Part shown: positions 7,203 through 29,180 of the stretch, in pieces | How positions within the stretch are numbered: the stretch's first letter is position 1 | How the letters are laid out: the number at the start of each line of letters is the position of its first letter | Source of the DNA: Sheuella sp. | Lineage (GTDB): Bacteria > Pseudomonadota > Gammaproteobacteria > Burkholderiales > Burkholderiaceae_B | DNA: 36,448 nt | Reading direction: 5' to 3' | NCBI GenBank assembly: GCA_030650995.1 | Contig: JAUSCY010000064.1 | Coordinates: 1-36,448, forward strand | Made by a program: the position numbers and the translations under genes | The notes under the pieces: model-generated | The model's input: only the letters and a program-made list of their open reading frames with translations | Told to the model about the DNA's origin: nothing | Database searches by the model: none

Positions 7203-7823
7203 ATGTCAACTAATTATCATTATTACGAGCCACGCACTGGCCATGGTTTACCGCATGACCCCTTCAACGCGATTGTAGGTCCTCGCCCAATCGGATGGAT
7301 ATCGACACAAAGTAAAGACGGTATCGTCAATCTGGCGCCTTATAGTTTTTTTAATGCTTTTAACTATGTACCGCCGATCGTTGCTTTTTCCAGTATTAAC
7401 TATAAAGACACAGTACGCAATGCAGAGGAAACAGGAGAGTTTGCCTGGAATCTCGTGACGATGCCTTTAGCCGAAGCGATGAATCAAACCTGTGCAGCTG
7501 TGCCACCCGATGTGAATGAATTTGAGTTGGCAGGTCTGACACAGGCGCCTTCTCGATTGATTAAAGCGCCTCGTGTAGGTGAGAGCCCGGTGTCTTTTGA
7601 GTGCAAAGTCACCAAAGTCATGCAGCTTGAAACCGCCTCGGGAGTGATCGTTCCGACCTGGATGGTCCTTGGCGAGGTTGTCGCTGTGCATATTGATCAG
7701 TCATTACTGAAAAACGGTATCTACGACACCGCAGCAGCGGGTCATGTGATGCGTGGTGGTGGTCCTGCGGACTACTTTACTGTTGGACCCGAACAGTTAT
7801 TTAAAATGCGTCGTCCTGGTTAA
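7203..7823 (+). CDS. Flavin reductase family protein (DIM6/NTAB type)
   Basis: This 206-residue protein has an FMN-binding split barrel. The key pattern is DPFNAIVGPRPIGWISTQS near the N-terminus, followed by NLAPYSFFNAFNYVPPIVAFS and the EFAWNLVTMPLAEAMN segment. Family members use NAD(P)H to reduce FMN for two-component oxygenases or act as FMN-binding proteins of uncertain role. AGGAAGAG lies just before the ATG. No oxygenase partner is adjacent, so the client is unknown. The TAA stop overlaps the TAA of the convergent methyltransferase gene. Confidence 0.85.
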   Translation: MSTNYHYYEPRTGHGLPHDPFNAIVGPRPIGWISTQSKDGIVNLAPYSFFNAFNYVPPIVAFSSINYKDTVRNAEETGEFAWNLVTMPLAEAMNQTCAAVPPDVNEFELAGLTQAPSRLIKAPRVGESPVSFECKVTKVMQLETASGVIVPTWMVLGEVVAVHIDQSLLKNGIYDTAAAGHVMRGGGPADYFTVGPEQLFKMRRPG

Positions 7824-8695
7824 TGGGGACAGGCAAATAAATCCCAGTGACCAATTTCACAACTTAGCGATTGCATCCGTGCGGTTAGCCAAGAGGTGAG
7901 TTCGGTTGCTGAGACCATGTTTGTTTGCGCAACAGCATTGGCCGAACCTGTCGCCAGTGCCTGCATCAAGAGTTGATCTTCTGAGCCCAGCAACCACGGA
8001 CTTCTTTGCATTCGAACATCAAAGCCGCGCGCCGTGAGTTGGGTACGCATAATTTCGATTGCACCCGGACCTGCAGATAACCCAAACCCCTTGTCTGTTA
8101 TCTGATGGCTATGGAAAGCGCGTAATACTGATTCGTCTGCCGGGTGTGCGGGTAACCATTTTTCTACGCCATCGTAGGTCAGTACGGTATAGAGAGGTAC
8201 GCTTAAGGAAAGGCAGAATCTTACAAGCCAGTCCGCAGAGACCAGATCAAAGAATGCGGCAGCTGTAACCAGATCAGTTTTCTCAGATAGAACGCGTTCA
8301 ATATTTTTCGCTAAATCTTCTTGTACAAAACTGACGGTGATATGTTTGCCGGATTTGTTTATTTGTATTGTTGTGTTTGAGGCGCCAGCAGCATTTTCAG
8401 GCTCTGCACGATCTGCCCATTGCATTAATGTCGTGCGGGCAGCACTCAGAAGCTCCGGGTCATAATCAATCAGTGTCCAGTGCTGATAGTCAGGAAAACT
8501 CTCAGCCAGCGCGCGTAAGTTAGATCCCGAGCCACAACCCAGATCCATGATTCTGAATGGAGTATTTGTTGACTTACCTAATCCAGGCTGTGTGCGTTCA
8601 AAGTATTGAAGCATTTCCTGGCGCAGTTTGATGTTGCGCGCGCGGTGATCGGCGGGTTCGCGTAAAGATAGCCATTGCGCAGAAAATCCAGTCAT
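7820..8695 (-). CDS. Class I SAM-dependent methyltransferase of the glucan operon
   Basis: This 291-residue protein carries the SAM-binding motif RIMDLGCGSGSNLRALAE (about residues 48-65) followed by the acidic TLIDYDPELL motif. The middle contains DLVTAAAFFDLVSADWL, the usual post-motif region. Its ATG overlaps the stop codon of the NdvA-like exporter gene (ATGA), so it is the third gene of a coupled operon with the glucan synthase and exporter. The substrate is unknown. Its position suggests that it could methylate the glucan, a precursor or a substituent, but small-molecule methylation unrelated to glucan is equally possible on sequence alone. Confidence 0.78.
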   Translation of the reverse strand: MTGFSAQWLSLREPADHRARNIKLRQEMLQYFERTQPGLGKSTNTPFRIMDLGCGSGSNLRALAESFPDYQHWTLIDYDPELLSAARTTLMQWADRAEPENAAGASNTTIQINKSGKHITVSFVQEDLAKNIERVLSEKTDLVTAAAFFDLVSADWLVRFCLSLSVPLYTVLTYDGVEKWLPAHPADESVLRAFHSHQITDKGFGLSAGPGAIEIMRTQLTARGFDVRMQRSPWLLGSEDQLLMQALATGSANAVAQTNMVSATELTSWLTARMQSLSCEIGHWDLFACPH

Positions 8696-10461
8696 GATGC
8701 CATCCTGTCAGGTAACTCGGTAAATTGCTCTTGTACGAGCTGCGTGAAACGGCCACCTCGCGCATAAAGCTCGTTAAAGGTGCCGACATCCACAACGCAT
8801 CCCCTCTCCATGACCAGAATTTTATCTGCCCGGCGAATGGTTGCGAGTCGGTGAGCAATAATAAGTGTGCTGCGGTTTTGCGTAACGGTTTCGAGTGCTT
8901 TGGTTAGCTTAGACTCGGTTGCGCTGTCCAGAGCACTAGTTGCTTCATCCAAAATTAATATTGGTGGATTTTTCAAGAGTACTCGCGCGATAGAAATGCG
9001 CTGACGTTCGCCGCCAGAAAGAGTGCGTCCGCGCTCTCCGATTTTTGTATCAAAACCATTTTCTTGTTTTTCAATGAAGTCTAATGCTTGAGCGCTTGCT
9101 GCGGCAGTTTTCAATTGTTCTTCGGTTGCTTCTGGATTGCCCACCAGCAGGTTTTCCGCGATAGACCGATTAAATAGAAGCGGTTCTTGAAAAACTACGC
9201 CAATGTTATGGCGTAAAGAACTGAGTGAAATATTTTTAATATCTATGCCATCTATCTCGATGGAGCCTGAGTGAGGATCAAAGGCGCGATAGAGCAGGGA
9301 AAGTGCAGTGGATTTTCCTGCGCCAGATGAGCCCACGAGTGCGACTGTTTGTCCTGGTTGTACAGTAAAGCTTAAATTTTGAATCGCAGGATACTTTGTA
9401 TCATAGGAAAAATTGACATTTTTAAACTCAATCATTCCTTTTGTCTGACTCAGTGTCACCGCATCCGCATGGTCATGGATTTCAGGAGAGGTATCCATCA
9501 TCTGGAAAAAATCCTCTAGCCGTGGTGCGTCCATCGCCAGTCTGTGAATGAAGTTTACCGTCTGCTCTAGTTTTGTGATGATCATTGCCGCAAAGGCGAT
9601 AAACGTCACAATAGCTCCGATCGAAATCAGGTCTCGTGTGAACAACCACGTGCCGAGAATCACAATGGATAAGATAGAAATTGTCGTTGCGGAACGATTC
9701 AGCACAGTTGCCAGTGCCCACCAAGACAAAACAGGTAACTGCGCACTTAACAAACGTTTGCTGATGTTCTTCAATGCAGAGACTTCATCCTGAATGCGCG
9801 TAAAGCTTTGTACTAGCTGGATATTGCCAAGCGTATCTGAAACTTGTGCTGCCATATCGGAATGATGACTTTCGACTTGTTGTTGTAGTGTCTGTGTTTT
9901 ACGAATAATGAAATGTGTCAACAGTGCGAATGCCAGACAAAGTACGATGAGTACGATCGCGAGCCGCCAGTTCAGATAAAGTGCCAAAGGCATCAACACT
10001 AGCAGCGAAACAATCGCTGCCAAATGATCGCGAAAAAAACTGAGCCATAACCACCAGAGTGCATCTGTTCCTTGCAGCATGATTTTCATCAGGCGCCCTG
10101 AATGCGTTGTATTTTGTTGTTTCAGTGGCAGTTGAATCACATGCTCAAAATAATCGCTGACGGCCATATGACGGCGACGGTGCGATAAGCGATCGGCATA
10201 TAAAGAGATCAGCGTGCTGCAGAAGATTGTGAATAAACCAAAACCTGTCCATGCGGCCAGCAAAGGCCATACCTCAGTCCATATGGACTTACTTTCACTG
10301 TTCGCAGCCTTGCTCAGCTTGTCGATGACCTGACCAAACAGGACAGGCTCTGCAAACAGCGCGCATGCTAATGCAACGTTTGCGATCGCAAGACACCAGC
10401 CCTGTCTTTTATCGGACCCGAGCAAATTCAGTACACGTATGTAAAGATTTAAAAATTTCAT
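8692..10461 (-). CDS. ndvA: Glucan exporter, ABC transporter permease/ATPase fusion (NdvA/ChvA type)
   Basis: This half-transporter exports beta-glucan across the inner membrane. The start MKFLNLYIRVLNLLG is used; the frame extends upstream into the glucosyltransferase gene. From this start it is 589 residues, equal to Agrobacterium ChvA and rhizobial NdvA. The N-terminus IANVALACALFAEPVLFGQVIDKL is typical of the family. About six membrane segments come first, then the ATPase domain with GSSGAGKS (Walker A), LSGGE (signature) and ILILDEATSALD (Walker B). The gene begins one base after the stop codon of the OpgH-like gene and overlaps the methyltransferase, giving a synthesis-export-modification order. 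Confidence 0.85.
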   Translation of the reverse strand: MKFLNLYIRVLNLLGSDKRQGWCLAIANVALACALFAEPVLFGQVIDKLSKAANSESKSIWTEVWPLLAAWTGFGLFTIFCSTLISLYADRLSHRRRHMAVSDYFEHVIQLPLKQQNTTHSGRLMKIMLQGTDALWWLWLSFFRDHLAAIVSLLVLMPLALYLNWRLAIVLIVLCLAFALLTHFIIRKTQTLQQQVESHHSDMAAQVSDTLGNIQLVQSFTRIQDEVSALKNISKRLLSAQLPVLSWWALATVLNRSATTISILSIVILGTWLFTRDLISIGAIVTFIAFAAMIITKLEQTVNFIHRLAMDAPRLEDFFQMMDTSPEIHDHADAVTLSQTKGMIEFKNVNFSYDTKYPAIQNLSFTVQPGQTVALVGSSGAGKSTALSLLYRAFDPHSGSIEIDGIDIKNISLSSLRHNIGVVFQEPLLFNRSIAENLLVGNPEATEEQLKTAAASAQALDFIEKQENGFDTKIGERGRTLSGGERQRISIARVLLKNPPILILDEATSALDSATESKLTKALETVTQNRSTLIIAHRLATIRRADKILVMERGCVVDVGTFNELYARGGRFTQLVQEQFTELPDRMAS

Positions 10462-10462
10462 C

Positions 10463-12223
10463 TTAAGGGTGGCGAGATTGATATGCCGCAAGATCGAGCT
10501 GAACGAGTGCTTCAGGTCGAATATTTTCTTCGGGAATATTGAACAGACCCCAGCGCAATAGCAATCTGCCAAAACCTGGTCTTGAGGTCATCACGGCAAG
10601 TGGGATCGAGAGCACGAGTCCTCCAAATAAAATGCTCGCCAGAAAAACGCACTGCGGATGTGTCAAGGCAAGCACACCGATAAGAAAAATCCCAAGCAAT
10701 GTATGGGGCCAGAATTGCCGAATGGCTGCAACGATCGGGACAGAATGATCTTCTCTGGTTTGCCCCGTCCAGCCTGATTTTTTACCAAATACTAAACCAG
10801 TCATAAAAATGCTGTGATTGAGCCAGGTGATAGGCGTCATCAGGATTGAGAACAGCATTTCAAGGGTAAAGCCTGAAAGGAATCTGAGCGTGCCACCAAA
10901 AGCTTTACGCTGATCCTGGCGAATCAGGACATCGAGCCCTCCAGCGAATTTGGGCCAGTACCACATGAAAATTGTCAGCCAGAGTAGCGTCATCCCTGCG
11001 GTCTGATGCATAAATTCGCCTGGAGTCGGGGAGCTTGCCAGCATGATCGTGCCCAGTACCAGCATCGCAATCCAGGCAGGTGATCCAAAAAACATGAATA
11101 CAGCATTGAGCAGTTGCTGGCGACTGATCAATTTAATCCCAGGTAAGTTGAGCAGTTGAAGGTACTGCAAGTTACCTTCGCACCAGCGCAGGTCACGACG
11201 TATGTATTCGATCAGCGTTGGTGGATTTTCTTCCCAGCTTTCATCTTCTTGTGGAAACACTCTCACATCAAAACCCGCGCGGCGCATTAGCACAGCTTCG
11301 ACTTGATCGTGACTCAGAATGTGCTGTGGTGTTCCGTCCTTGTCATGCAGCACAGGCAGATCGCATTCGGCGATGAAAGGGGCGAGTCTGAAGACTGCAT
11401 TATGTCCCCAGTATGGCCCGCAATCACCTTGCCACCATGCCGTTCCCATTGTGTAGGAGCGCATGCCTAGCCGCATGCCAAACTGAAACATCCGCGTAAA
11501 GCCGCTGGTTGTGGGCATGCCCACGACCAGACCCTGCAGTAAACCCAGATTAGGGTTGGCTTGCATAATGCGTATCAGCCTCATGATCGCAGCACCAGTC
11601 ATAAAACTATCTGCATCAAGTGTGATGGCAAAGTCGTGCTGATGTCCCCACCGGTTACAGAAGTCAGCAATATTTCCTGCCTTGTAACCCGCGTTATTCG
11701 TACGGCGACGATAGGTAATGCTGATGCGGTCTTTCCAGTTTTGTGTCATTGCGTCAAAGCATGCTTGTTCGCTCTGCGCGCAGTTTTCATCGTTGGTATC
11801 GCTCAACACATATACGTGGATGTTCTCTGCGATACCAGGTGTCGCAAGATCTTTTAGCGTTGCGGTTAGATTGCGCTCAAGTCGTTCAGGGCTTTCGTTA
11901 CGAATGCAAAGAAGGATAGCCGTTGAGGTTGTGATCGGTGCATGCGGATCAATATTGCTTGCCATCGGTATGACCGTCGACAAGGGATCATCTGCAAAAC
12001 GCCAGATAAGAAAACCAATCGTGGAGTTCCAGAATCCCGTTGCCATCCAGGGCAAGGTGAAGAAAAATAAAACGAGTAACGCAATATCCGTCACATTCAG
12101 GCCATTGATTGCGAGAGCACTGGCCATCAGCCAAAGCATGCCAATCATTGTGACGATGACCAGAGTTCCAAATAAAATGCGTCTGCCAGACATGGATGGG
12201 TTGGTTTTAAGTTTTTGGTTCAT
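10463..12223 (-). CDS. opgH: Glucan biosynthesis glucosyltransferase, OpgH/MdoH-like
   Basis: This 586-residue inner-membrane GT2 enzyme should polymerise glucose from UDP-glucose into osmoregulated periplasmic glucan. Two membrane segments near residues 15-60 precede a cytosolic domain with the TLDADS motif (Asp203 and Asp205), a second acidic region at LSHDQVEAVLMRRAG, and the LRWCEGN equivalent of Q/RxxRW. A set of C-terminal membrane helices follows. It is much shorter than E. coli OpgH (847) but similar to alphaproteobacterial forms. No opgG or opgD gene is adjacent. It heads the operon opgH-ndvA-methyltransferase and is divergent from the MDR gene. Confidence 0.88.
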   Translation of the reverse strand: MNQKLKTNPSMSGRRILFGTLVIVTMIGMLWLMASALAINGLNVTDIALLVLFFFTLPWMATGFWNSTIGFLIWRFADDPLSTVIPMASNIDPHAPITTSTAILLCIRNESPERLERNLTATLKDLATPGIAENIHVYVLSDTNDENCAQSEQACFDAMTQNWKDRISITYRRRTNNAGYKAGNIADFCNRWGHQHDFAITLDADSFMTGAAIMRLIRIMQANPNLGLLQGLVVGMPTTSGFTRMFQFGMRLGMRSYTMGTAWWQGDCGPYWGHNAVFRLAPFIAECDLPVLHDKDGTPQHILSHDQVEAVLMRRAGFDVRVFPQEDESWEENPPTLIEYIRRDLRWCEGNLQYLQLLNLPGIKLISRQQLLNAVFMFFGSPAWIAMLVLGTIMLASSPTPGEFMHQTAGMTLLWLTIFMWYWPKFAGGLDVLIRQDQRKAFGGTLRFLSGFTLEMLFSILMTPITWLNHSIFMTGLVFGKKSGWTGQTREDHSVPIVAAIRQFWPHTLLGIFLIGVLALTHPQCVFLASILFGGLVLSIPLAVMTSRPGFGRLLLRWGLFNIPEENIRPEALVQLDLAAYQSRHP

Positions 12224-12322
12224 GTTCAGGCGATCAAGGAGAGGTTCGGTCTTATACTCAGCACAATGTCAGCGCAGTATAGGTCAGACAAGTAATTTTC
12301 GATAAATTTCCAGAAAAATCAG

Positions 12323-13330
12323 ATGGTTACTATGCCGGAAAATAATCCCTCGGCCATTCAAGCCGAAGCACGTGCACTTTGGTACGTCTCGCCAGGCCAG
12401 GCTGAAATCCGTAACGAGCGTGTTCCTGAATTGCAGCCAGATCAGATTCGGGTGCATACACTTTTCAGTGCAATCAGCCGTGGTACGGAATCTCTGGTTT
12501 GGGCGGGGCGGGTACCTGCTGCTGAGTATCAGCGCATGCGCGCACCCTTTATGGGCGGCGAGTTCCCTTTTCCAGTCAAGTACGGTTATTCATCTGTTGG
12601 ACAAATCCAACAGGGCCCCGCAGAATTATTAGGTAAATTTGTCTTTAGTTTGTCACCCCACCAAACTGTACTGACTCTGGACGCGAGCGCTGCCGCAGTG
12701 CTTCCGGCGGGACTACCTCCGGCAAGAGCAGTACTCGCAGCAAACATGGAGACGGCACTCAATGCAGTCTGGGATGCGGCTCCAGGACCTGCGGATCGTA
12801 TTGCCATTGTGGGGGGAGGGGTTGTCGGTCAGCTCGTGGCGTAGTTGTGTGGACACTTGCCTGCTGCGGACGTCACCCTGATAGATATCAATCCTGCGCG
12901 CGCTGCAGTCGCAAATGCATTGGGAGTAAAGTTTGCAACTCCCGAGTGCGCACCAAAAGAGTGCGATCTGGTCATTCATTGCAGCGGTTCGCCAACGGGT
13001 TTAACGACGGCATTGTCACTCGCGGGAGCAGAAGCCACGGTCCTTGAAATGAGCTGGTATGGAGATCAGCCTGTGGCTGTTCCCTTAGGAAGTGCTTTTC
13101 ACAGCCGCCAGCTCAGACTTCAATCCAGCCAGGTCGGACACATATCTGCATCCAGAAGACCTCGCTGGAGTTATGCGCGCAGACTGGCTGCTGCGCTGAG
13201 GCTACTCAACGATCCGAGGCTGGATGTGTTGCTTGCGCCGAGTGTTTCATTTAATGATCTCCCTGCACAATTAACAAATATTTTAGGGCCAGGAAATAGT
13301 ATTCTTTGCCAACTGATTCAGTACGATTAA
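12323..13330 (+). pseudogene. MDR (zinc-binding alcohol dehydrogenase-like) gene interrupted by an in-frame TAG
   Basis: The two halves lie in the same frame and together encode about 335 residues. The first half has the GroES-like fold (LWYVSPGQAEI, SAISRGTESLVWAG, VKYGYSSVGQI) and ends in the Rossmann motif AIVGGGVVGQLVA. After the TAG at 12842-12844 the frame continues with LCGHLPAADVTLIDINPARA, the expected next strand of the same domain. A Trp codon TGG changed to TAG by one base is the simplest explanation. The Rossmann fold is cut in two, so the product should be inactive unless the stop is suppressed or is a sequence error. The catalytic zinc GHE motif is not seen. The gene heads the plus-strand group with the PTPS-like and glycosyltransferase genes. 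Confidence 0.8.
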
Positions 13331-13346
13331 TTTGTACGATTAATTT
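13321..13346 (+). repeat. Perfect 13-bp tandem duplication at the MDR stop codon
   Basis: GTACGATTAATTT occurs twice head to tail (13321-13333 and 13334-13346). The first copy contains the last codons and TAA of the MDR gene; the second lies in the short spacer before the PTPS-like gene and ends 13 bases before its ATG. It looks like a recent slippage duplication. Confidence 0.85.
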
Positions 13347-13359
13347 CTAAGGAACCAAA

Positions 13360-13761
13360 ATGTTTACAGTCGAAGTTCGTGATCACATCATGATTGCACA
13401 CTCATTCCGTGGCGATGTATTTGGCCCGGCACAAGCCCTTCACGGAGCAACCTTTGTTGTGGATGCCGCCTTTATCTCAAAAACTCTGGATGAAAACGGT
13501 ATTGTGATTGATATCGGTCGTGCGCTGGATGTGTTGAAGTCTGTGCTGAAACCTTTGAATTATTCAAATCTGGATGATAAAGAGGAGTTCAAAGGAAAAA
13601 ATACGACAACAGAATTTTTGACCAAACATATTTTTGACGTATTGGCCGATGCGGCACGCACGAATGGTTTAGGTCGCGATGGTAAGGAATTACACGCGAT
13701 TCGTGTCACGATTTCTGAGTCACATGTCGCACGCGCCTGGTACGAGTCGACGATCTGGTGA
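13360..13761 (+). CDS. 6-pyruvoyl-tetrahydropterin synthase/QueD-fold protein with non-canonical active site
   Basis: This 133-residue protein has the T-fold of PTPS/QueD: MFTVEVRDHIMIAHSF at the start, an IVIDIGRALDVLK strand-helix, NTTTEFLTKHIFDVL, and the closing SESHVARAWYE with Glu120. Canonical residues are missing. The zinc HxH pair reads His28-Gly-Ala30, leaving His14 and His28 of the usual three. The catalytic Cys before it is absent (FGPAQALHG). The catalytic Asp-His pair reads Asn67-Tyr68. QueD or PTPS activity is therefore doubtful, although pterin or purine-like ligand binding remains plausible. AAGGAA lies upstream of the ATG. The stop overlaps the glycosyltransferase start region. 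Confidence 0.8.
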   Translation: MFTVEVRDHIMIAHSFRGDVFGPAQALHGATFVVDAAFISKTLDENGIVIDIGRALDVLKSVLKPLNYSNLDDKEEFKGKNTTTEFLTKHIFDVLADAARTNGLGRDGKELHAIRVTISESHVARAWYESTIW

Positions 13762-13763
13762 GC

Positions 13764-14834
13764 ATGAAACATATCGCTTTCGCTATTCCTGGCGATATCG
13801 ATACGCCGACGGGTGGTTATATTTACGATCGCCGCATGATTCAAGGCCTCAAGGATCTGGGCTGGCAAGTCGATATTGTTGCACTGGGTGAGGGGTTTCC
13901 TTATCCTGATGCAGCGACGTTGGCCTTTGCACAACAAGCTTTGTCTGCTGTTCCAGTCCACTGTCCAATTTTGATTGACGGTCTTGCTTTTGGTGTAATG
14001 ACTGAGATTGTCGGGCAGCTTGCTCAGACGCATCAATTGATTGCTCTGGTGCATCATCCCCTGGCGCTTGAGTCTGGACTGAGTGATGCGCAGGCCAAAG
14101 CCTTTAAGTCTAGTGAAATGAAGGCGTTAGCGTATGCCTCGCATATCATCGTGACCAGTCCAGCGACTGCCCGAAACCTGATTGCAGAATTTGAAATACC
14201 TCCCCACTGCGTGAGCGTAGTGCTGCCTGGTACTGACAAAGCGCAAGCTTCGCCTGACTCTGCGCATGAGCGTGGGCATACTGATGGCGTTTTGCGCTTG
14301 TTGTCAGTTGGCTCGATCGTGCCGCGTAAAGGATTTGATGTGTTGCTCAGAGCACTGGCAACATTAAAAGACTTGCCCTGGTCGCTGACAATAGCCGGTG
14401 ATCGTTCGCGTGATGTGCAGGCATCTGCTCAGCTCGACGAGGATCTTGATCGTTTTGCGCTCCACGATCGTGTGCAGCTGCTGGGTGCAGTGTCCTCGGC
14501 CGTTCTGGAGTCCTTGTATCAGAACGCAGATCTGTTTGTTCTCGCTTCACGATATGAGGGCTACGGTATGGCGTTTGCCGAAGCGCTTGCGCACGGATTA
14601 CCTGTGGTTGCGACAACCGGTGGGGCAATACCGGAGACCGTGCCATCGACAGCGGGAATCCTGGTCGAGCCGGGTGATGCAGAGCAGTTTGCTCAGGCAT
14701 TGCATCGGCTCATGACGGATAGGCAATTGCTTGAGAAGTTGTCCAGCGGCGCGCGTCAGGCGGCTAATCATCAGCCTGACTGGCAGCAGAGTGCCCATCT
14801 GTTCTCAGAGGTGCTTCAGTCTTTTCGAGTTTGA
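13764..14834 (+). CDS. Family 4 glycosyltransferase
   Basis: This 356-residue GT-B enzyme transfers a sugar from a nucleotide-sugar donor. The N-terminus MKHIAFAIPGDIDTPTGGY contains the acceptor-domain glycine loop. The donor domain begins near LLSVGSIVPRKGFDVLLRAL and carries the E-x7-E type motif SRYEGYGMAFAEALAHGLPV. A GTG six bases upstream overlaps the preceding stop and is an alternative start. The acceptor is unknown. Position between a PTPS-fold gene and RibD/RibA-type genes suggests a pterin or pyrimidine acceptor. Its 3' end overlaps the convergent RibD-type gene by 19 bases. Confidence 0.82.
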   Translation: MKHIAFAIPGDIDTPTGGYIYDRRMIQGLKDLGWQVDIVALGEGFPYPDAATLAFAQQALSAVPVHCPILIDGLAFGVMTEIVGQLAQTHQLIALVHHPLALESGLSDAQAKAFKSSEMKALAYASHIIVTSPATARNLIAEFEIPPHCVSVVLPGTDKAQASPDSAHERGHTDGVLRLLSVGSIVPRKGFDVLLRALATLKDLPWSLTIAGDRSRDVQASAQLDEDLDRFALHDRVQLLGAVSSAVLESLYQNADLFVLASRYEGYGMAFAEALAHGLPVVATTGGAIPETVPSTAGILVEPGDAEQFAQALHRLMTDRQLLEKLSSGARQAANHQPDWQQSAHLFSEVLQSFRV

Positions 14835-15589
14835 CGCAGTGCAGACAGGTCACAGTCAAAAAGTACTTCATCATCCAGTTTATGCGCGTGAACGGTGAGG
14901 CGTTGTGCCTGATCCATAGTTTCAATCGCGGGTAAACAAAAGCCAGCACGGCCTGAACCCATAATGATCGGGGCAACAATGACATGTAGTCTGTCCAGAC
15001 AGCCTGCATGCATAAAGCGGGAAACCGTATCTGCGCCACCTTCGATCAGGATACGGTTCAGACCAATGTCGCTTAAACTCTGCAGAATCGCAGAGGGTGA
15101 AATATTCCCGCCTACGTCAGGTAAATAAAGTACCTCCACGCCCTGTGGTGCAGGATACTCTGTACCCTTTCTGGTAATGACGACCCTGCGCGTGCCGTCA
15201 TCGTTAAAAATTTGAGGCTGTTCTTGAAGCCGGCGATTTGGGTCAATCACCACGCGCGCAGGGTGAGCGGCTTTTTCCAGCCTGACAGTCAAAAGTGGAT
15301 TGTCTGCGATGACTGTGCCAACACCGACTACAACGGCATCCACAACCGCCCGCAAGCGATGTAAGTGCCTGAGTCCCGATGGCCCGTTGATATATTTAGA
15401 ATGGCCTGTCACGGTGGCGATGCGCCCGTCTATTGTTTGCCCGATTTGACCGATTACCATCATGCGGTCACTGCTCAGTTGGCGCAAAGGCTCAAAAATT
15501 GTTGCCGGCCACAGTGAGTCATGCGCAGCACTGAGCGCAGAATTCCGTTGTTCAGATGTGGCTGAATTTGATGGTTCGACTATTGTCAT
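14816..15589 (-). CDS. Stand-alone RibD C-terminal-type (DHFR-fold) reductase
   Basis: This 257-residue protein matches the reductase half of RibD, which reduces the ribosyl side chain of a GTP-derived diaminopyrimidine with NADPH. The core starts near residue 45 with VIGQIGQTIDGRIAT and continues with KYINGPSGLRHLHRLRA, VDAVVVGVGTVIADNPLLTVR, and NRILIEGGADTVSRFMHAG. No deaminase domain precedes it, so it is not the bifunctional riboflavin enzyme. An N-terminal extension of about 40 residues is present. The GTG just before the ATG is an alternative start. It is divergent from the GTP cyclohydrolase II gene across a 211-base region with a palindrome. Confidence 0.83.
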   Translation of the reverse strand: MTIVEPSNSATSEQRNSALSAAHDSLWPATIFEPLRQLSSDRMMVIGQIGQTIDGRIATVTGHSKYINGPSGLRHLHRLRAVVDAVVVGVGTVIADNPLLTVRLEKAAHPARVVIDPNRRLQEQPQIFNDDGTRRVVITRKGTEYPAPQGVEVLYLPDVGGNISPSAILQSLSDIGLNRILIEGGADTVSRFMHAGCLDRLHVIVAPIIMGSGRAGFCLPAIETMDQAQRLTVHAHKLDDEVLFDCDLSALRQTRKD

Positions 15590-15656
15590 CACAAAAACCG
15601 TTTTAAATTTGGGTGTATTCAGTCAACACTTTACAGCAGGGTGGCATAATGTCTTG

Positions 15657-15673
15657 TTGCATAATATATGCAA
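15657..15673. promoter_or_regulatory. Inverted repeat in the RibD-type/ribA divergent promoter, possible operator
   Basis: TTGCATA-ATA-TATGCAA is a perfect 7-bp inverted repeat with a 3-base spacer, placed 67 bases upstream of the RibD-type start and 127 bases upstream of the ribA-type start. It fits a dimeric regulator site. No riboswitch fold typical of FMN control was seen in this region. Function is inferred. Confidence 0.4.
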
Positions 15674-15800
15674 TAGAATCAATGTGATATTGAGCCAGTT
15701 TTACTTTGCCAGACTTGTTCAATTTTTATCATTTTTACTATTTTCCTCATCTCCGTTTAATCGTAATTAAACATTGTTTAGATAACTGGTTTCTCATTTC

Positions 15801-16874
15801 ATGTCAGATCCCCTTATTCAAGTTGACCGCGCTATTTCCGAGCTGCGTCGTGGTGCAAGTGTGCTCGTTTGTGCGGGTGAAACAACGCTGCTGATGATGG
15901 CTGTTGAAGGTGCGACTGAAGAAAAACTGACTCAAATACGTGATGAATCTGGTCGGGGGCCCAAGTTGGTCATGACTGGAACACGCGCGAAGATTCTCGG
16001 ATTGAAAGGCAGCGGTGCTGCGACTTGTGTAGTGAGCTCTCAGGAGCCACTCGACAAAGCATCTATTGATTTTTTAACCGATCCTTTGTCTGCCAGAGTT
16101 CCAGCCCCAGATTTATTTGCTTTCAGCGCGAATGTTGCCGGACGTGTTGAGCAAGCCTGTGTCACGCTTTCCAAGCTTTCCCGGCTTTTACCTGCGGCAG
16201 TTATTGCAGATATCACTTCCAAGCATGATATCGATGCTGTCAAGGTTCAGGTAAGCGATATTGAGACGTATATGAATACCGCGGCTGACACATTAAATAT
16301 TGTGAGTCAGGCGCGTGTACCACTTGAAAATGCCGAAAATGCGCGCGTAGTCGCTTTCCGACCACGTGATGGTGGCATTGAGCACCTCGCCATCGTAGTG
16401 GGTGAGCCAGATCTGAATCTGCCTGTTTTAGTGCGGCTGCATTCTGAGTGTTTCACAGGTGATTTGGTCGGCTCACTACGTTGTGATTGCGGCAACCAGT
16501 TAAGAGGCGCGATTACTGCGATGGATCAGGCGGGTAGCGGCGTGCTGCTGTATCTTGCACAAGAAGGACGCGGGATTGGACTCGTGAATAAATTACGTGC
16601 TTATCAACTGCAGGATGCAGGTTTTGATACGGTAGATGCGAACTTGCAATTAGGATTTGATTCTGATGAACGAAATTATTTGCCTGCTGCGCAGATGTTA
16701 CGTTTGTTGGGAATTTCAAAAGTACGCCTGCTGACAAATAATCCGATCAAGGTCGATGCGTTAGCCAGACACGGTATCGAGGTTGTTGAGCGTGTGCCGC
16801 ATATTTTTCCCTCAAATGAGCACAACCAGGGCTACTTGAATACGAAGGCCACAAAAAGCGGTCATATGTTTTAA
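15801..16874 (+). CDS. ribA: GTP cyclohydrolase II with degenerate RibB-like N-terminal domain
   Basis: This 357-residue protein opens GTP to a diaminopyrimidine, formate and pyrophosphate. The C-terminal half (from about residue 170) is a good cyclohydrolase II: VRLHSECFTGDLVGSLRCDCGNQL supplies the three zinc Cys, then LAQEGRGIGLVNKLRAYQLQ and LLTNNPIKVDAL. The first 150 residues align in layout with the DHBP synthase domain of RibBA (AISELRRGASVLV) but lack the acidic DDEDRENEGD active-site run, reading CAGETTLLMMAVEG instead. The enzyme is therefore likely to be cyclohydrolase only. Context beside a lone RibD reductase, a PTPS-fold protein and a glycosyltransferase suggests a secondary pathway rather than bulk riboflavin synthesis. 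Confidence 0.85.
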   Translation: MSDPLIQVDRAISELRRGASVLVCAGETTLLMMAVEGATEEKLTQIRDESGRGPKLVMTGTRAKILGLKGSGAATCVVSSQEPLDKASIDFLTDPLSARVPAPDLFAFSANVAGRVEQACVTLSKLSRLLPAAVIADITSKHDIDAVKVQVSDIETYMNTAADTLNIVSQARVPLENAENARVVAFRPRDGGIEHLAIVVGEPDLNLPVLVRLHSECFTGDLVGSLRCDCGNQLRGAITAMDQAGSGVLLYLAQEGRGIGLVNKLRAYQLQDAGFDTVDANLQLGFDSDERNYLPAAQMLRLLGISKVRLLTNNPIKVDALARHGIEVVERVPHIFPSNEHNQGYLNTKATKSGHMF

Positions 16875-20460: not shown

Positions 20461-21723
20461 ATGGAATCGCAAACACGTCAGGCAAATATGGTGCTTGGAT
20501 CAAGCACTTTCGCATTCACAATATGCTTCGCTGTTTGGATGATGTTTGCCGTGATTGGCATACCGATCAAGAAACAATTAGGCTTGAATGAGACAGAGTT
20601 TGGTTTGTTAGCTGCGATGCCTGTGCTCAGTGGTTCGTTGATTCGTGTTCCTTTGGGAATATGGACTGACCGGTTTGGTGGCCGAATCGTTTTTTTTCTG
20701 TTGATGATCGCTAGTGTCGTACCAATATGGCTGATGTCTTATGCGACACAGTACTGGCATTTTCTTGTACTTGGACTGTTTGTGGGACTTGCAGGAGGCT
20801 CTTTTTCTGTAGGCACCCCATACGTTGCACGCTGGTTTCCAAAAAATCGCCAGGGGCTGGCGATGGGAATTTTCGGTGCAGGCAACTCAGGTTCGGCACT
20901 GACTAAGTTCGTCGCGCCAGTCTTGATTGTGGTGGCGGGCGGGTCCTGGACCATTGTGCCCCAGGTTTATTCGATCGCGATGCTTGTGACTGCCGTGCTG
21001 TTCTGGCTTTTTTCTGCAACGAATCCTGCACACAATATATCTACTACCGCAAGCTTTAGCCAACAGCTAAAAATGCTCAAAGACCCGCGCGTCTGGCGGT
21101 ATTGCCAGTATTACTCAGTGGTATTCGGTGGCTATGTCGCGTTGGCGTTATGGATGACTAAATATTATGTGGGTGAGTATGGATTCAATATTCAGACTGC
21201 AGCGTTATTAGCTGCTTGTTTCTCTTTGCCTGGTGGCGTGTTGCGTGCGCTCGGCGGCTGGATATCAGATCGTTACGGTGCCTACCAGACGACCTGGTGG
21301 GTGATGTGGGTCTGCTGGGTCGCATTTTTTCTCCTTAGCTATCCACAGACTAATTTCACTGTCCTGACCGTGAACGGTCCACGTGATTTTCATATTGGCC
21401 TGACTCCAACGCTCTTCACGATTCTTCTTTTTGTCGTTGGTATCGCCATGGCGGTTGGCAAAGCCTCTGTTTTCAAATTCATCTCCGACGACTTCGGTGA
21501 AAACATTGGTGCCGTTTCTGGCGTTGTAGGCCTAGCTGGCGGCCTGGGAGGCTTTGTCCTTCCGATCATGTTTGGTGCGCTGGTGGACATCACTGGCGTG
21601 CGCTCATCGAGTTTCATGCTGCTCTACGGAAGTGTCTGTGTATCGCTCGTCTGGATGCACTTTAGTTTCAGGGCTGAAAGTGTGGCCAAAGGCCGTTTGT
21701 CACTGGCTACAAACGCTCAATAG
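20461..21723 (+). CDS. narK1: Nitrate transporter NarK1 (MFS, nitrate/proton symporter type)
   Basis: This 420-residue major facilitator protein has about 12 membrane segments. It has the type-1 NarK layout: a short N-terminus, LIRVPLGIWTDRFGGRIVF (loop 2 with the substrate Arg and the GxxxDRxGGR motif), GLAGGSFSVGTPYVARWFP and GNSGSALTKFVAP (nitrate signature), and LRALGGWISDRYGAY in the second half. The type is thought to import nitrate with protons for the cytoplasmic reductase. A strong AGGAGGGGG site precedes the ATG. It is the first gene of the nar operon and lies 9 bases before narK2. Confidence 0.9.
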   Translation: MESQTRQANMVLGSSTFAFTICFAVWMMFAVIGIPIKKQLGLNETEFGLLAAMPVLSGSLIRVPLGIWTDRFGGRIVFFLLMIASVVPIWLMSYATQYWHFLVLGLFVGLAGGSFSVGTPYVARWFPKNRQGLAMGIFGAGNSGSALTKFVAPVLIVVAGGSWTIVPQVYSIAMLVTAVLFWLFSATNPAHNISTTASFSQQLKMLKDPRVWRYCQYYSVVFGGYVALALWMTKYYVGEYGFNIQTAALLAACFSLPGGVLRALGGWISDRYGAYQTTWWVMWVCWVAFFLLSYPQTNFTVLTVNGPRDFHIGLTPTLFTILLFVVGIAMAVGKASVFKFISDDFGENIGAVSGVVGLAGGLGGFVLPIMFGALVDITGVRSSSFMLLYGSVCVSLVWMHFSFRAESVAKGRLSLATNAQ

Positions 21724-21732
21724 GAGTCGATT

Positions 21733-23121
21733 ATGTCATCAAGTTACGTCATTAAACGTTGGGAACCAGAGGTGAAAACATTCTGGGAGGAGCAAGGTAG
21801 CCGGATAGCCAATAGAAATCTCTGGATTTCAATTTTCGCGTTGATGCTGGCTTTTATTGTCTGGATGCTCTGGTCTGTCGTGGTGGTCAATCTGGGTAAA
21901 GCTGGATTTAATTTTAGTAAGAACCAGATGTTTTGGCTGACAGCCTTGCCAGCCTTATCTGGAGCGACGTTGCGGATTTTTTATTCCTTTCTCGTGCCGA
22001 TATTTGGTGGGCGCCGGTGGACAGCAATTTCAACCGCGAGCTTGCTCATCCCAGCCTTGGGCATGGGCTTTGCCTTGCGAGATCCAACCACTAGTTATCC
22101 AACTCTTCTTGTGCTGGCTTTGCTCTGCGGATTTGGAGGCGGCAACTTCAGTTCCTCTATGTCAAATATCAGTTTCTTTTTTCCAAAGGCAAAAAAAGGA
22201 TTGGCGACAGGTTTAAACGCGGGCATTGGTAACTTAGGCGTTTCGGTGGTGCAGTTTGTTGTACCGATGGTGATCTCGATCGCGGTGTTCGGTGTGGTGG
22301 GTGGTGAGGGACATCAATTTAACGGACCCGATGGTGTTCAGAAAACAATCTGGTTGCAAAACGCTGGATTTGTCTGGGTGCCTTTGATTGTTATTTCGGC
22401 GCTTGCCGCATGGTTTGGTATGAATGATCTCGCCGAAGCAAAGGCCTCTTTTGCGGATCAGGCAGTGATATTCAAGCGTAGTCATAACTGGCTGATGTGC
22501 TGGCTTTATCTGGGAACTTTCGGTTCATTTATCGGATTTTCAGCAGGATTGGCTCTGTTGACACAGTCTCAGTTTCCTAACGTCAACCCTACTAAGTATG
22601 CGTTCCTGGGTCCTTTGGTCGGCGCTGCGGTCCGCCCTGTCGGTGGATGGATTTCTGACAAGATTGGTGGAGCGTGCGTCACGCTCTGGACCTTTGTGGG
22701 AATGATGATTGCAGTCTTAGGTGTCCTGTATTTCCTGCCCACAGGTTCAAATCCAGGAAGTTTTGAAGGGTTTCTTGGAATGTTCATTGTGCTGTTTGCA
22801 TTGACAGGTCTGGGTAATGGATCGACGTTCCGGATGATCCCGGTCATTTTTTTGCACGAACGTCAGCAAGTGGCAGCAAAAGATGCTGCCTCGCAACGAC
22901 AGGCCACGCTTGATGGTGGCAAAGAGGCCGCAGCAGTCCTGGGCTTTTCAGGAGCGATTGGCGCATACGGCGGGTTCTTTATCCCTAAAAGTTTCGGTAC
23001 GGCGATTGATATGACGGGCTCACCGCATGCCGCCTTGTATTGCTTCATCGTCTTCTATGCCACCTGTGTGTTTGTCACGTGGTGGTGGTATGCCCGTCGC
23101 AATGCCCCGATGCCCTGCTGA
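21733..23121 (+). CDS. narK2: Nitrate/nitrite antiporter NarK2 (MFS)
   Basis: This 462-residue transporter is of the longer NarK/NarU type, thought to exchange nitrate for nitrite. It begins with a soluble WEPEVKTFWEEQGSRIANRNLWISIFAL segment typical of this type. Nitrate-signature glycines appear as GFGGGNFSSSMSNISFFFP and GLNAGIGNLGVS; a second-half signature reads GAVRPVGG-like (VGAAVRPVGGWISDKIGG) and DGGKEAAAVLGFSGAIGAYGGFFIP. In Paracoccus the two NarK types are fused; here they are separate genes 9 bases apart. The spacer to narG (46 bases) has a small GTCGC/GCGAC hairpin. Confidence 0.9.
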   Translation: MSSSYVIKRWEPEVKTFWEEQGSRIANRNLWISIFALMLAFIVWMLWSVVVVNLGKAGFNFSKNQMFWLTALPALSGATLRIFYSFLVPIFGGRRWTAISTASLLIPALGMGFALRDPTTSYPTLLVLALLCGFGGGNFSSSMSNISFFFPKAKKGLATGLNAGIGNLGVSVVQFVVPMVISIAVFGVVGGEGHQFNGPDGVQKTIWLQNAGFVWVPLIVISALAAWFGMNDLAEAKASFADQAVIFKRSHNWLMCWLYLGTFGSFIGFSAGLALLTQSQFPNVNPTKYAFLGPLVGAAVRPVGGWISDKIGGACVTLWTFVGMMIAVLGVLYFLPTGSNPGSFEGFLGMFIVLFALTGLGNGSTFRMIPVIFLHERQQVAAKDAASQRQATLDGGKEAAAVLGFSGAIGAYGGFFIPKSFGTAIDMTGSPHAALYCFIVFYATCVFVTWWWYARRNAPMPC

Positions 23122-23167
23122 ACTGAATGCTTAATGGTCGCGGTATGCGACAAGTTGGAGAAAATGA

Positions 23168-26100
23168 ATGAGTCACTTTTTAGATCGCTTACAGTTTTTT
23201 TCGAAAACCAAAGAGACCTTTTCAAACGGTCATGGTGCTGTCGTGGCAGAAGACCGTCAATGGGAGGATGCTTATCGTCAGCGCTGGCAGCATGACAAAA
23301 TTGTTCGCTCAACGCATGGTGTGAATTGCACGGGATCATGTTCGTGGAAGGTCTACGTCAAAAGCGGTTTAATTACCTGGGAAACTCAGCAAACTGATTA
23401 CCCGAGGACACGACCAGACCTCCCAAATCATGAGCCACGTGGATGTCCGCGTGGAGCATCCTACAGTTGGTATGTGTATTCGGCGCAGCGTGTCAAACAC
23501 CCGATGGTGCGCGGCCGTTTAATGGAAATGTGGCGTGACGCGCGTAAAACGATGGATCCGATCGATGCGTGGGAATACATCAGCCAGAATCCCGAGCGTG
23601 CCAAGCGATACAAAAGTGTGCGTGGTCTGGGTGGCTTTGTCCGGGCAGACTGGGATACCGTGACCGAGATCATCGCAGCAGCGAATGCGATGACGATCAA
23701 AAAATACGGTCCGGACCGTATTGTCGGATTCTCTCCGATTCCTGCAATGTCTATGGTGTCCTACGCAGCGGGCGCACGTTATCTGAGTCTGATTGGCGGT
23801 GCCTGTCTGAGTTTTTATGACTGGTATTGCGATTTGCCACCTGCCAGTCCACAGGTATGGGGAGAGCAAACTGATGTGCCTGAGTCGGCTGACTGGTACA
23901 ACTCGACATACCTGATGGTTTGGGGATCGAACGTTCCGCAGACACGAACGCCTGATGCGCACTTCTATACGGAAGTCCGCTACAAAGGTACAAAAACTGT
24001 CGCCGTCTCAAGTGATTTTGGCGAGATGGTCAAATTTGGCGATATATGGCTTGCGCCCAAGCAAGGTACGGACGCAGCGCTCGCGATGGCGATGGGCCAT
24101 GTCGTAATGAAAGAGTTTCATTTAAGCGGGAAGTCTGAGTACTTCCGGGATTATTCGAAGCAATACACCGATATGCCGATGCTGGTGATGTTGCGCGAGC
24201 TTAATGGTGGATTAGTTCCAGACCATTTCTTGCGTGCATCGCACCTCGCAGATAATCACGGTGAGACGAACAATCCGGATTGGAAAACTTTGTTGATAGA
24301 TGCCGTCACAGGTGAGTTAGTTGTACCCAATGGTGCAATCGGCTTGCGTTGGGGAGAGGGCGCCGTCAACGAAGGTAAACAGCTCGGACGCTGGAATCTT
24401 GAGAAAAAGGATGCCGCTTCAGGCCGTGAAGTCGATCCGGTACTGAGTATGGTGGATGTGGAGCACGAGATCGCTGGTGTGAGCTTTCCATATTTCGGAG
24501 CTGAGCACGAGGAGTTGCTGGTTCGTAATGTTCCTGTCAAACGTATGGTGCTTGCTGATGGAACAAGCGTGCTTGTCACAACAGTTTATGACCTGCAGAT
24601 GGCCAACTATGGCGTGGATCGCGGACTGGGTGGCGGTAATGTCGCGACAAGCTTCGACGACGATGTGCCATACACACCTGCCTGGCAGGAAAAGCACACG
24701 ACTGTGCCGCGTCATCTCGTGATTCAGGTCGCGCGTGAGTTCGCACAAAACGCGCACGATACGCACGGCAAATCAATGGTTATTGTCGGCGCTGCGCTGA
24801 ATCACTGGTACCACATGGATATGACCTACCGTGGCATCATTAATTTATTAATGATGTGCGGTTGTGTCGGTCAGAGCGGTGGCGGTTGGGCGCACTATGT
24901 TGGTCAGGAAAAATTGCGACCGCAGTTCGGCTGGGCACCATTGGCATTTGGTCTGGATTGGTCGCGTCCTCCCCGTCAGATGAATGGAACCAGTTTCTTT
25001 TATGCGCACACCAGTCAGTGGCGCCATGAAAAACTGCACGTTGACGAAATACTTTCGCCGACGGCGGATGCAGCTAAATATAAAAACATGAGCATGCTCG
25101 ATTTGAATGCCAAGTCGGAGCGGATGGGCTGGTTACCATCAGCGCCTCAGCTAGAAACTAATCCACTTGATGTGGTGGCAGCGGCAGAGGCACAGGGTAA
25201 AGATCCGGTGTCTTATGTAACAGAAAACCTTAAGAATGGCAGCCTGAATATGAGCTGCGACGATCCGGATAATCCTGCGAACTTTCCGCGCAATATGTTC
25301 GTCTGGAGATCGAACATTCTGGGTTCAAGCGGCAAGGGTCATGAATATTTCCTGAAATATTTTCTTGGCACGCAGAATGCCCTGTTTGGTGATGAAGCTG
25401 ACGCGATTAAACCGAGCGAAGTCAAATTCCGCGAGGAGGCTGCGGAGGGTAAGCTTGATCTGATCACTGTGCTTGATTTCCGCATGAGTACGACTTGCCT
25501 GTATGGGGATATCGTTCTGCCTACCGCGACATGGTATGAAAAGGATGACCTCAATACCTCAGACATGCACCCTTTTATTCATCCGCTGAGTGAAGCCGTC
25601 CAGCCATTATGGGAAAGTAAGACAGACTGGGAAATCTACAAACTGATCGCTAAAAAGTTCAGTGAAATTGCAGGACCATATCTTGGCACCCGCAAGGATA
25701 TTGTTCTCACACCTCTCATGCACGATACCCCCGGTGAACTGGGCCAGGCCTTTGAACCAAAAGACTGGAAGCTTGGAGAGTGTGATTTGATTCCAGGTAA
25801 AACCGCGCCAAACATGACCGTGGTAGAGCGCAACTACAGTGATATTTACCGCAAATTCACCTCGGTCGGTCCATTGCTGGAAAAATTGGGTAATGGCGGC
25901 AAAGGGATTGGCTGGGATACCAAGCATGAGGTACATGAGCTCGCTGGAATTACCAAGACTGTCACTGAAGAGGGTGTCAGCAAAGGGCGACCAAGGCTAG
26001 ATACAGCGATAGATGCGGCCGAGATGATTCTGACCTTCGCACCAGAGACCAATGGTCATGTTTCTGTCAAAGCATGGCAAGCCTTGTCTAAAATAACTGG

Positions 26101-28446: not shown

Positions 28447-28453
28447 ACTTAAG

Positions 28454-28480
28454 TCCTGACCATTTAAAAGATGGTCAGGA
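28454..28480 (+). promoter_or_regulatory. narH-narJ intergenic hairpin overlapping the narJ ribosome-binding site
   Basis: TCCTGACCAT (28454-28463) pairs perfectly with ATGGTCAGGA (28471-28480) around a 7-base TTAAAAG loop, giving 10 base pairs. The 3' arm includes the first bases of the AGGAGGGAG ribosome-binding site of narJ (28477-28485; ATG at 28493). The structure could limit narJ translation relative to narGH. That role is inference. Confidence 0.6.
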
Positions 28481-28492
28481 GGGAGAATCATC

Positions 28493-29161
28493 ATGCAGGA
28501 CTTTAAATTACTGTCAGCGCTGTTGTGTTATCCGGATCAGGCGCTAATGGATTCGTTACCTGAGATACGTGCGATGGTCTCTGACAGTGCCAGCTTGTCT
28601 GGACGGCTAGAGCCACTGCTGGATTATCTGGAGAGTGATTCAGTCATCGCTATTCAGGAAAACTACGTCGCAACTTTTGACCGTAATCAACGGCATAGTT
28701 TGCATTTATTTGAACATATCCATGGAGAAAGTCGCGACAGAGGCCAAGCCATGGTTGACTTATTGACCGAGTATCGAAAGAACGGTTTCGATATGGTGAC
28801 CAATGAGTTGCCAGACTATGTTCCGCTCTTCCTTGAGTTTCTTGCGCAGTTGTCAACAGATCAAGCCCAGCATTTCCTTGGCGATGCCATTCACGTACTG
28901 GCTATGATCGGCAATAAACTTACCGCAAATGCAAGTCCCTATGCAGTAATTTTTGATGTTCTTCGCGCGCAGTGTCTGACACAGCCACTTCCTTTCGAGG
29001 AACCGCCTGTGCGCGATATGGATGAGGCGATGGAAACTTTCGGGCCAGGAGCCGATGGTGTGGAGCCTTTACTGAAGCCTTCCGCAGCGCAAACAATCAA
29101 TTTCTATCCAAGAAAGCCCAACATTCCCGGTGGAGCTTCACAGTCCATCAAGCAATGCTGA
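28493..29161 (+). CDS. narJ: Nitrate reductase molybdenum cofactor assembly chaperone NarJ
   Basis: This 222-residue system-specific chaperone helps insert the molybdenum cofactor into NarG and dock NarGH on NarI. It is not part of the final enzyme. Typical features: LLSALLCYPDQALMDSLPEI at the start, then NYVATFDRNQRHSLHLFEHIHGESRDRGQAMVDL-type central helices and the ELPDYVPLFLEFLAQL motif shared by TorD/NarJ proteins. A strong AGGAGGGAG ribosome-binding site is present but partly folded in the preceding hairpin. narI follows after 19 bases. Confidence 0.95.
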   Translation: MQDFKLLSALLCYPDQALMDSLPEIRAMVSDSASLSGRLEPLLDYLESDSVIAIQENYVATFDRNQRHSLHLFEHIHGESRDRGQAMVDLLTEYRKNGFDMVTNELPDYVPLFLEFLAQLSTDQAQHFLGDAIHVLAMIGNKLTANASPYAVIFDVLRAQCLTQPLPFEEPPVRDMDEAMETFGPGADGVEPLLKPSAAQTINFYPRKPNIPGGASQSIKQC

Positions 29162-29180
29162 TTGCGATCAGGAGCACATT

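Follow-up and report, generated by a model that had tools for sequence, protein, structure and literature searches.

A conserved gene set around a PTPS-IV protein in Sheuella sp. and its possible role in a branch from the first intermediate of riboflavin synthesis

Introduction

A subfamily of COG0720 with the signature FGPAQ has been named PTPS-IV (PTPS, 6-pyruvoyltetrahydropterin synthase), and genes of the families PF00925 and PF01872 were recorded near a cluster of 561 sequences, cluster-node 62 of the AGeNNT analysis of 2017 (PMC5445326). The sections of that paper dealing with this node label PF00925 as GTP cyclohydrolase I/FolE2; the label is mistaken, because PF00925 is GTP cyclohydrolase II. 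In a passage of Zallot et al. 2016 (PMC5041015), PTPS-IV is assigned to the synthesis of coenzyme F420 on the basis of unpublished work. Here, we describe a PTPS-IV gene and its neighbors in a stretch of 36,448 nucleotides from Sheuella sp. (contig JAUSCY010000064.1, hereafter referred to as the window). This gene belongs to a conserved gene set that can tentatively be read as a pathway branching from the first intermediate of riboflavin synthesis.

Hereafter, L-numbers denote loci and G-numbers denote genomes; the genome of the window, G000, is 91% complete.

Conservation of the gene set

The five adjoining families named in the initial annotation of the window were all recovered with Pfam and NCBIfam models, although the first gene required a correction. 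They correspond to a medium-chain dehydrogenase/reductase (MDR) gene (12323-13330, plus strand), the PTPS-IV gene (13360-13761, plus strand; Pfam PTPS, E = 4e-22), a family 4 glycosyltransferase (GT4) gene (13758-14834, plus strand; Pfam Glycos_transf_1, E = 7e-33), the first 4 bases of which coincide with the end of the PTPS-IV gene, and a GTP cyclohydrolase II gene (15801-16874, plus strand; PF00925, E = 1.8e-61). A stand-alone RibD_C reductase gene without a deaminase domain (hereafter referred to as RibDc; 14816-15592; PF01872, E = 1.4e-39), on the minus strand, separates the GT4 gene from the cyclohydrolase gene. An in-frame TAG (12842-12844) interrupts the MDR frame and may be either a nonsense change or an assembly error; the homologues in L020-L024 each form one open frame. 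The conserved set exceeds these five genes and spans positions 7820-16874, with the addition of genes for a methyltransferase, an ATP-binding cassette (ABC) exporter and an OpgH-like protein. The window is thus one member of a conserved gene set, with its own MDR gene damaged.

A first set of 86 relatives was obtained through PTPS-IV, from the best 80 of at least 582 genome-contig matches and six of 20 plasmid records. Profile searches identified MDR in 82 of these loci, GT4 in 81, the methyltransferase in 74, an OpgH-like gene in 60, RibDc in 55 and the cyclohydrolase in 36, together with an FkbM-type methyltransferase (28), a CDP-alcohol phosphatidyltransferase (14; CDP, cytidine diphosphate), a flippase-like protein (10), a sulfatase-like protein (10) and a creatininase-family protein (5); absences are partly due to short loci, 27 of the 86 being under 18 kb. 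The second sample consisted of 398 Pseudomonadota genomes drawn evenly across the phylum, to avoid picking near relatives. PTPS-IV was present in 27 of them (about 7%), that of the window included, with scores of at least 189.6 bits, the next match scoring 54.3. The other 26 sampled loci carried MDR (26), GT4 (25), the methyltransferase (24), RibDc (22), OpgH-like (12), CDP-alcohol phosphatidyltransferase (12) and cyclohydrolase (11) genes; at least two of these genomes are apparently also in the first set (L181/L084 and L200/L076, with identical scores). MDR and PTPS genes were adjacent on one strand in 76 of the 82 first-set loci and 23 of the 26 sampled loci having both.

The same search provided 14 control loci of weaker PTPS-family matches, none of which carried any partner family at the thresholds used, these thresholds having been fixed after the scores were seen. 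GT4-like matches of 48-57 bits in four control loci lay far below the threshold of 300; the controls were not matched by taxon, and six of the 14 had no PTPS match in the local search. This comparison shows that the gene set accompanies PTPS-IV, without showing that every gene in it is required for function. The co-occurrence expected in the initial annotation was thus borne out, the families traveling together in Alpha-, Beta- and Gammaproteobacteria and in Actinomycetota, the PTPS-IV matches including some on plasmids of Streptomyces, Arthrobacter and Microbacterium. In the order of the window, the PTPS protein was matched in 10 of 300 genomes, of which G140 reached no better than E = 1.5e-4; none of nine relatives from the same family gave a match. 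Taken together, these data indicate that the cluster is almost certainly a conserved functional unit.

The PTPS-IV and MDR proteins

The signature FGPAQ is present in 86 of 87 first-set loci (the window counted; L097, which reads FGPGQ, is the lone exception) and in all 26 sampled loci, but in none of eight control PTPS-family proteins, and genes of PF00925 and PF01872 both lie near the PTPS gene of the window, as described for the subfamily. By comparison with the control proteins, the site of the window protein has HGA in place of HGH and N-Y in place of a D-H pair, and its Cys has been lost, whereas the first His of the site and a Glu near the C-terminus are retained. We take the changed positions to be zinc and acid-base residues of PTPS, and the retained Glu to be the anchor of a 2-amino-4-oxo pyrimidine or pterin in this fold. 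The CxxxHGH motif of QueD (PTPS-I) is absent from the window protein, which reads PAQALHGA, whereas the ordinary PTPS-family proteins of L206-L210 read DCARLHGH. A single-sequence search matched one solved structure, that of SCO6650 from Streptomyces coelicolor (PDB 3d7j; phmmer, E = 1.2e-41), a close relative that was reportedly found to be without zinc and without PTPS activity.

Five aligned MDR relatives (alignment A3) read S-R-G-T-E at the position that we take to be that of the catalytic Cys, and they do not carry the catalytic zinc ligands of the zinc-dependent MDR alcohol dehydrogenases, the positions of which are likewise assumed here rather than computed; the window protein is also without these ligands. 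A search of the PDB gave 44 weak matches, mainly to polyol, sugar and alcohol dehydrogenases (best E = 7.5e-13).

The cyclohydrolase and RibDc

With the sequence and numbering that we take to be those of Escherichia coli RibA, the window cyclohydrolase has C, C, C, E, R, Y, D and R at positions 54, 65, 67, 92, 94, 105, 126 and 128 (8/8), so that the equivalents of the zinc Cys triad (C54, C65 and C67) and of the catalytic R128 and Y105 are intact. All eight residues were also found in 35 of the 37 other first-set cyclohydrolases with data and in 11/11 of the sample, the exceptions being L075, with Cys for Arg94, and a Streptomyces copy (L016), with Met for Tyr105. The protein resembles NCBIfam PRK08815, with a score below the cut-off. 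The initial annotation assigned it a dead-looking RibB domain: the RibB motif is indeed missing, although Pfam detects no 3,4-dihydroxy-2-butanone 4-phosphate (DHBP) synthase (RibB) domain in it at all. The motif E-N/R-E/D-G/A-D was found in none of 39 first-set cluster cyclohydrolases (the window counted; in this count, contig ends truncate L020 and L036, and L016 is without the N-terminal part) and in none of the 11 sampled, as opposed to 16 of 16 RibBA proteins.

In G321 and G323, RibDc and the cyclohydrolase are direct neighbors at a site separate from the core, a count from which G329 was left out owing to its ambiguous contig position. A third, more divergent PF00925 group (about 49-72 bits) was noted in several cluster-bearing genomes, and both copies read (L116 and L117) keep the zinc Cys.

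Glycosyltransferase, methyltransferase and membrane genes

Divergent from the MDR gene, the window encodes an OpgH/MdoH-like membrane glucosyltransferase (10463-12223, minus strand; NF003958, 540 bits for a cut-off of 419), followed by an ABC exporter of the NdvA/ChvA (glucan export) family (8692-10572, minus strand; NF010178, 854 bits for a cut-off of 733) and a class I S-adenosylmethionine-dependent methyltransferase with a fold of the small-molecule type (7820-8695, minus strand), which was identified from homologues in relatives and from a structure model. The methyltransferase also lies behind the OpgH and ABC genes, with the ABC gene between the two, in the close relatives L020-L024, L027 and L045, and this order ties the two halves of the cluster together. 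Among the 86 relatives, 10 scored above 500 bits with the exporter profile. The methyltransferase model (pLDDT, the predicted local distance difference test, of 95) had generic methyltransferases as its best PDB matches (TMq 0.57), and the fold search provided no more than such generic matches with respect to the acceptor. GT4 and the methyltransferase are fused into one gene in six of the 26 sampled loci, all from two gammaproteobacterial families, which suggests that they catalyze consecutive steps.

The slot divergent from MDR is occupied by an OpgH-like gene in 53/86 first-set and 7/26 sampled loci, by a CDP-alcohol phosphatidyltransferase gene in 4/86 and 12/26, and never by both. Strict exclusivity of the two families was considered and rejected: there is no overlap in the first set (63 loci with the window counted versus 14), yet four of the 26 sampled loci hold both, with the OpgH-like gene elsewhere in a CDP-alcohol cluster. 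The exclusivity therefore holds for the slot divergent from MDR. In four aligned members of the CDP-alcohol protein, the pattern D-G-x2-A-R-x8-G-x3-D-x3-D, which we take to be the motif of this family, is complete. A cytochrome b561 gene is present in 35/86 first-set and 7/26 sampled loci. A recurrent protein with an apparent signal peptide, judged by eye, was also seen within 10 kb of PTPS-IV in eight loci (L054, L055, L059, L060, L061, L066, L069 and L081).

A possible branch pathway and its alternatives

The cluster can be read, tentatively and with a probability just short of even, as a branch pathway leaving riboflavin synthesis at its first intermediate, the reactions, their order and the product all being deduced from sequence comparisons. 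This reading is based on the conserved co-occurrence, the intact cyclohydrolase residues, the altered PTPS site, the gene fusion and the alternative membrane genes. GTP cyclohydrolase II would convert GTP to 2,5-diamino-6-ribosylamino-4(3H)-pyrimidinone 5'-phosphate, and RibDc would reduce the side chain from ribosyl to ribityl, most likely prior to deamination, the order in which the archaeal and fungal relatives of RibDc act. PTPS-IV would bind the reduced pyrimidine, or a pterin derived from it, and carry out a non-canonical step, and the zinc-free MDR would act as a redox enzyme on either the side chain or a sugar. The methyltransferase and GT4, fused in some genomes, would act one after the other on a common molecule. 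The membrane module may extend, anchor or export the product, through the OpgH-like protein and the NdvA-type exporter in the window, and through a CDP-alcohol phosphatidyltransferase and a flippase-like protein elsewhere. It is somewhat more likely than not that the cyclohydrolase and RibDc feed the cluster pathway. The reduced, glycosylated pyrimidine or pterin proposed in the initial annotation remains a tentative reading, with a methylation and a membrane or export step to be added.

A number of observations weigh against this branch reading. The MDR gene of the window is interrupted, and none of the 86 first-set loci showed the GT4-methyltransferase fusion, which is confined to two gammaproteobacterial families. 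A genome-wide search of 31 cluster-bearing genomes found no RibDc in 14 of them (the matches in G304 and G342, which contain an in-frame stop, were scored as present); the other 19 genomes have RibDc in the locus, which gives 14 without it among 50. The cyclohydrolase is missing from 15/26 sampled loci, and several genomes without RibDc, such as those of Roseibium, also have no strong cyclohydrolase. Each of the two is thus absent from many clusters, implying that neither is essential to the function of the core; in the genomes without RibDc, either the core substrate must then come from housekeeping enzymes, or RibDc must be accessory.

A possible two-step route in L016, a cluster on a Streptomyces fungicidicus plasmid, was taken in favor of the branch reading. 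Its cyclohydrolase, with Met for Tyr105, adjoins a creatininase-family gene; Met-type cyclohydrolases presumably release a formamidopyrimidine (FAPy), as SCO6655 is said to do in reports from the Bandarian laboratory. Bacterial creatininase-family proteins include FAPy formamidases (PMC9478397), so that L016 may reach the same diaminopyrimidine by a two-step route. This argument is weakened by two observations. Tyr105 is kept in eight of the nine clusters with both a creatininase-family gene and a cyclohydrolase, so that the FAPy argument comes down to the Streptomyces locus and a general rule linking creatininase to Met at this position is rejected. The L016 protein also scored higher with the NCBIfam models for MftE (141 bits) and creatininase (100 bits) than with that for ArfB (37 bits), all below the cut-off.

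The alternative that survives best, which we nevertheless consider unlikely, is that the cyclohydrolase, and perhaps RibDc, mainly serves riboflavin synthesis and is a mere neighbor of the MDR, PTPS-IV, GT4, methyltransferase and OpgH genes, which would make something unrelated, such as a periplasmic glycan. In G000, a bifunctional RibD (deaminase plus reductase, read from the translation) lies next to RibE on another contig, C134, and the cluster is therefore not the riboflavin operon. There was no RibB match in this 91% complete genome, whereas all 14 control genomes were positive, suggesting that its own RibBA probably escaped assembly. The window, the 86 relatives and the 26 sampled loci gave no match to RibE or RibB (RibH was not searched for). 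With the RibB motif, a deaminase domain and an adjacent RibE all absent, the riboflavin operon was rejected as the sole explanation and was kept as an alternative for the cyclohydrolase. The product other than riboflavin envisaged in the initial annotation is accordingly supported as far as the operon is concerned, but less securely for the cyclohydrolase: this enzyme provides the single PF00925 match in G000, although a separate RibD exists there, and the only zinc-complete one in G301-G304.

This analysis was extended to 49 of the 50 cluster-bearing genomes (L025 was left out), with matches of at least 159 bits to PF00925 considered strong. The cluster cyclohydrolase was the only strong match in 26 of the 28 first-set genomes having one, the exceptions being G332 and G339, and in six of the 11 sampled genomes with a cluster cyclohydrolase, the other five having a second one. 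Many of these genomes thus have no ordinary cyclohydrolase other than the cluster enzyme, which may serve riboflavin synthesis, and the persistence of the core in Roseibium loci without RibDc and cyclohydrolase, together with the presence of the latter in just 11/26 sampled loci, points in the same direction. This recount lowered our confidence in a dedicated pathway slightly, from even to just below even, and raised that in a riboflavin role by an equally small step, within the range of the unlikely.

Other genomes argue against a riboflavin role. No strong cyclohydrolase whatsoever was found in 14/49 cluster-bearing genomes, and seven of nine same-family relatives without PTPS-IV have only a RibBA without the zinc Cys, so that riboflavin synthesis in these genomes, if it occurs, seems to be independent of a zinc-complete enzyme. 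The weaker second PF00925 matches that were read, including those of the close relatives G301-G304, were in 16/16 cases RibBA proteins with a cyclohydrolase domain lacking the zinc Cys. A zinc-complete cyclohydrolase outside the cluster accompanies the one inside it in seven residue-checked genomes (G397, G642, G716, G637, G181, G665 and G332), a count that leaves out L234 (the cluster copy of G339, the other match of which, at 193 bits, was not checked for residues), L235 (from a relative without the cluster) and L236 (from G432, zinc-complete, with an ambiguous cluster copy). Finally, RibDc lies near PTPS-IV in 22/26 sampled loci although the window's own genome has a bifunctional RibD, and no RibE or RibB accompanies it.

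In seven of nine near-complete genomes from the family of the window (L220-L226 and L101-L104), GTP cyclohydrolase II is represented only by a RibBA in which the RibB motif is intact and the cyclohydrolase domain has no zinc Cys. A creatininase-family protein was found in one of these seven.

Under the branch reading, the product may be a 2-amino pyrimidine or pterin, an assignment held only tentatively. Somewhat less probable than a riboflavin role is a 2-oxo product of the lumazine or flavin type, which would start from 5-amino-6-ribitylaminouracil phosphate, produced with the aid of the housekeeping RibD deaminase, and would be glycosylated and exported. The Glu retained in PTPS-IV, which we take to hold a 2-amino-4-oxo ring, argues against it, as does the absence of RibE from the cluster loci. 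In its favor, the genomes without RibDc retain the core together with a different RibD_C match, as large as a bifunctional RibD and a potential source of the deaminated compound, and the same route, with a cyclohydrolase and a RibD gene dedicated to it, has been proposed for pseudoiodinine (PMC9911603).

A role of PTPS-IV in coenzyme F420 synthesis, although stated from unpublished work in the passage of Zallot et al. 2016 cited above, is very improbable and was rejected, because the F420 ligase CofE (PF01996) was found in only six of 50 cluster-bearing genomes and not in G000; the control search, on 14 named genomes, detected it in three, of which two are methanogens and one is a haloarchaeon.

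Returning to the branch pathway, an envelope-linked or exported product is conceivable, at slightly less than an even chance. A far more speculative and improbable extension is that the product is a new reduced, methylated and glycosylated ribityl-pterin, anchored in the envelope or exported, acting as an extracytoplasmic redox cofactor served by cytochrome b561; its attachment would proceed by phosphatidyl transfer in one branch and by glucan-type glycosylation in the other.

Other features of the window

No flavin mononucleotide (FMN) riboswitch or other Rfam element reached the gathering score in the window. A defense system was considered and rejected: of 10 proteins submitted to PADLOC, two gave matches, the ABC exporter to ATPase models and the methyltransferase to methyltransferase models. 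Positions 20461-29864 encode two proteins resembling nitrate/nitrite transporters, followed by genes resembling narGHJI, for a respiratory nitrate reductase (read from translations, unscanned).

Comparison with known systems

The set would connect the first intermediate of riboflavin synthesis with a protein of the pterin fold, with sugar transfer and methylation, and with the envelope; its marker protein occurs in about 7% of sampled Pseudomonadota genomes and on plasmids of actinobacterial genera (Streptomyces, Arthrobacter and Microbacterium). The proposed pathway would account for the solved structure 3d7j, deposited as uncharacterized. The names given in public records, 6-carboxytetrahydropterin synthase and zinc-binding alcohol dehydrogenase, do not fit the conserved residues of these proteins. 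In the open-access literature of PubMed Central, to which our search was directed (subscription papers were outside its scope), we recognized no description of this gene set as a pathway and no assigned product.

The closest described system, AGeNNT cluster-node 62, shares the PTPS subfamily motif and the nearby PF00925 and PF01872 genes with the window; the sections devoted to it mention no MDR, GT4, methyltransferase, OpgH or CDP-alcohol phosphatidyltransferase and propose no pathway (PMC5445326). The Streptomyces plasmid locus L016 resembles the window in having MDR, PTPS, GT4 and methyltransferase genes together with a cyclohydrolase, to which it adds the creatininase-family protein. It differs from the window in its Met at position 105, where the window has Tyr, in the absence of RibDc, and in having a CDP-alcohol phosphatidyltransferase in place of OpgH.

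The pseudoiodinine (psd) and toxoflavin clusters likewise have a dedicated GTP cyclohydrolase, a RibD-type gene and methyltransferases, and branch off riboflavin synthesis. As far as its seven genes are described in the part of the report concerned (PMC9911603), the psd cluster differs in having WD-40, sulfatase-modifying-factor and glyoxalase-type genes and no PTPS, MDR, GT4 or OpgH. WD-40 and sulfatase-modifying-factor genes were not found among the 10 protein stretches (nine genes) of the window scanned with Pfam, the rest of the window being unscanned. The huimycin cluster, according to the sections of the report describing its genes (PMC7439116), likewise groups 6-carboxytetrahydropterin synthase, methyltransferase and glycosyltransferase genes around a ring derived from GTP, but it uses GTP cyclohydrolase I and 7-deazaguanine enzymes, whereas the window encodes a cyclohydrolase II and a PTPS-family protein without the QueD motif.

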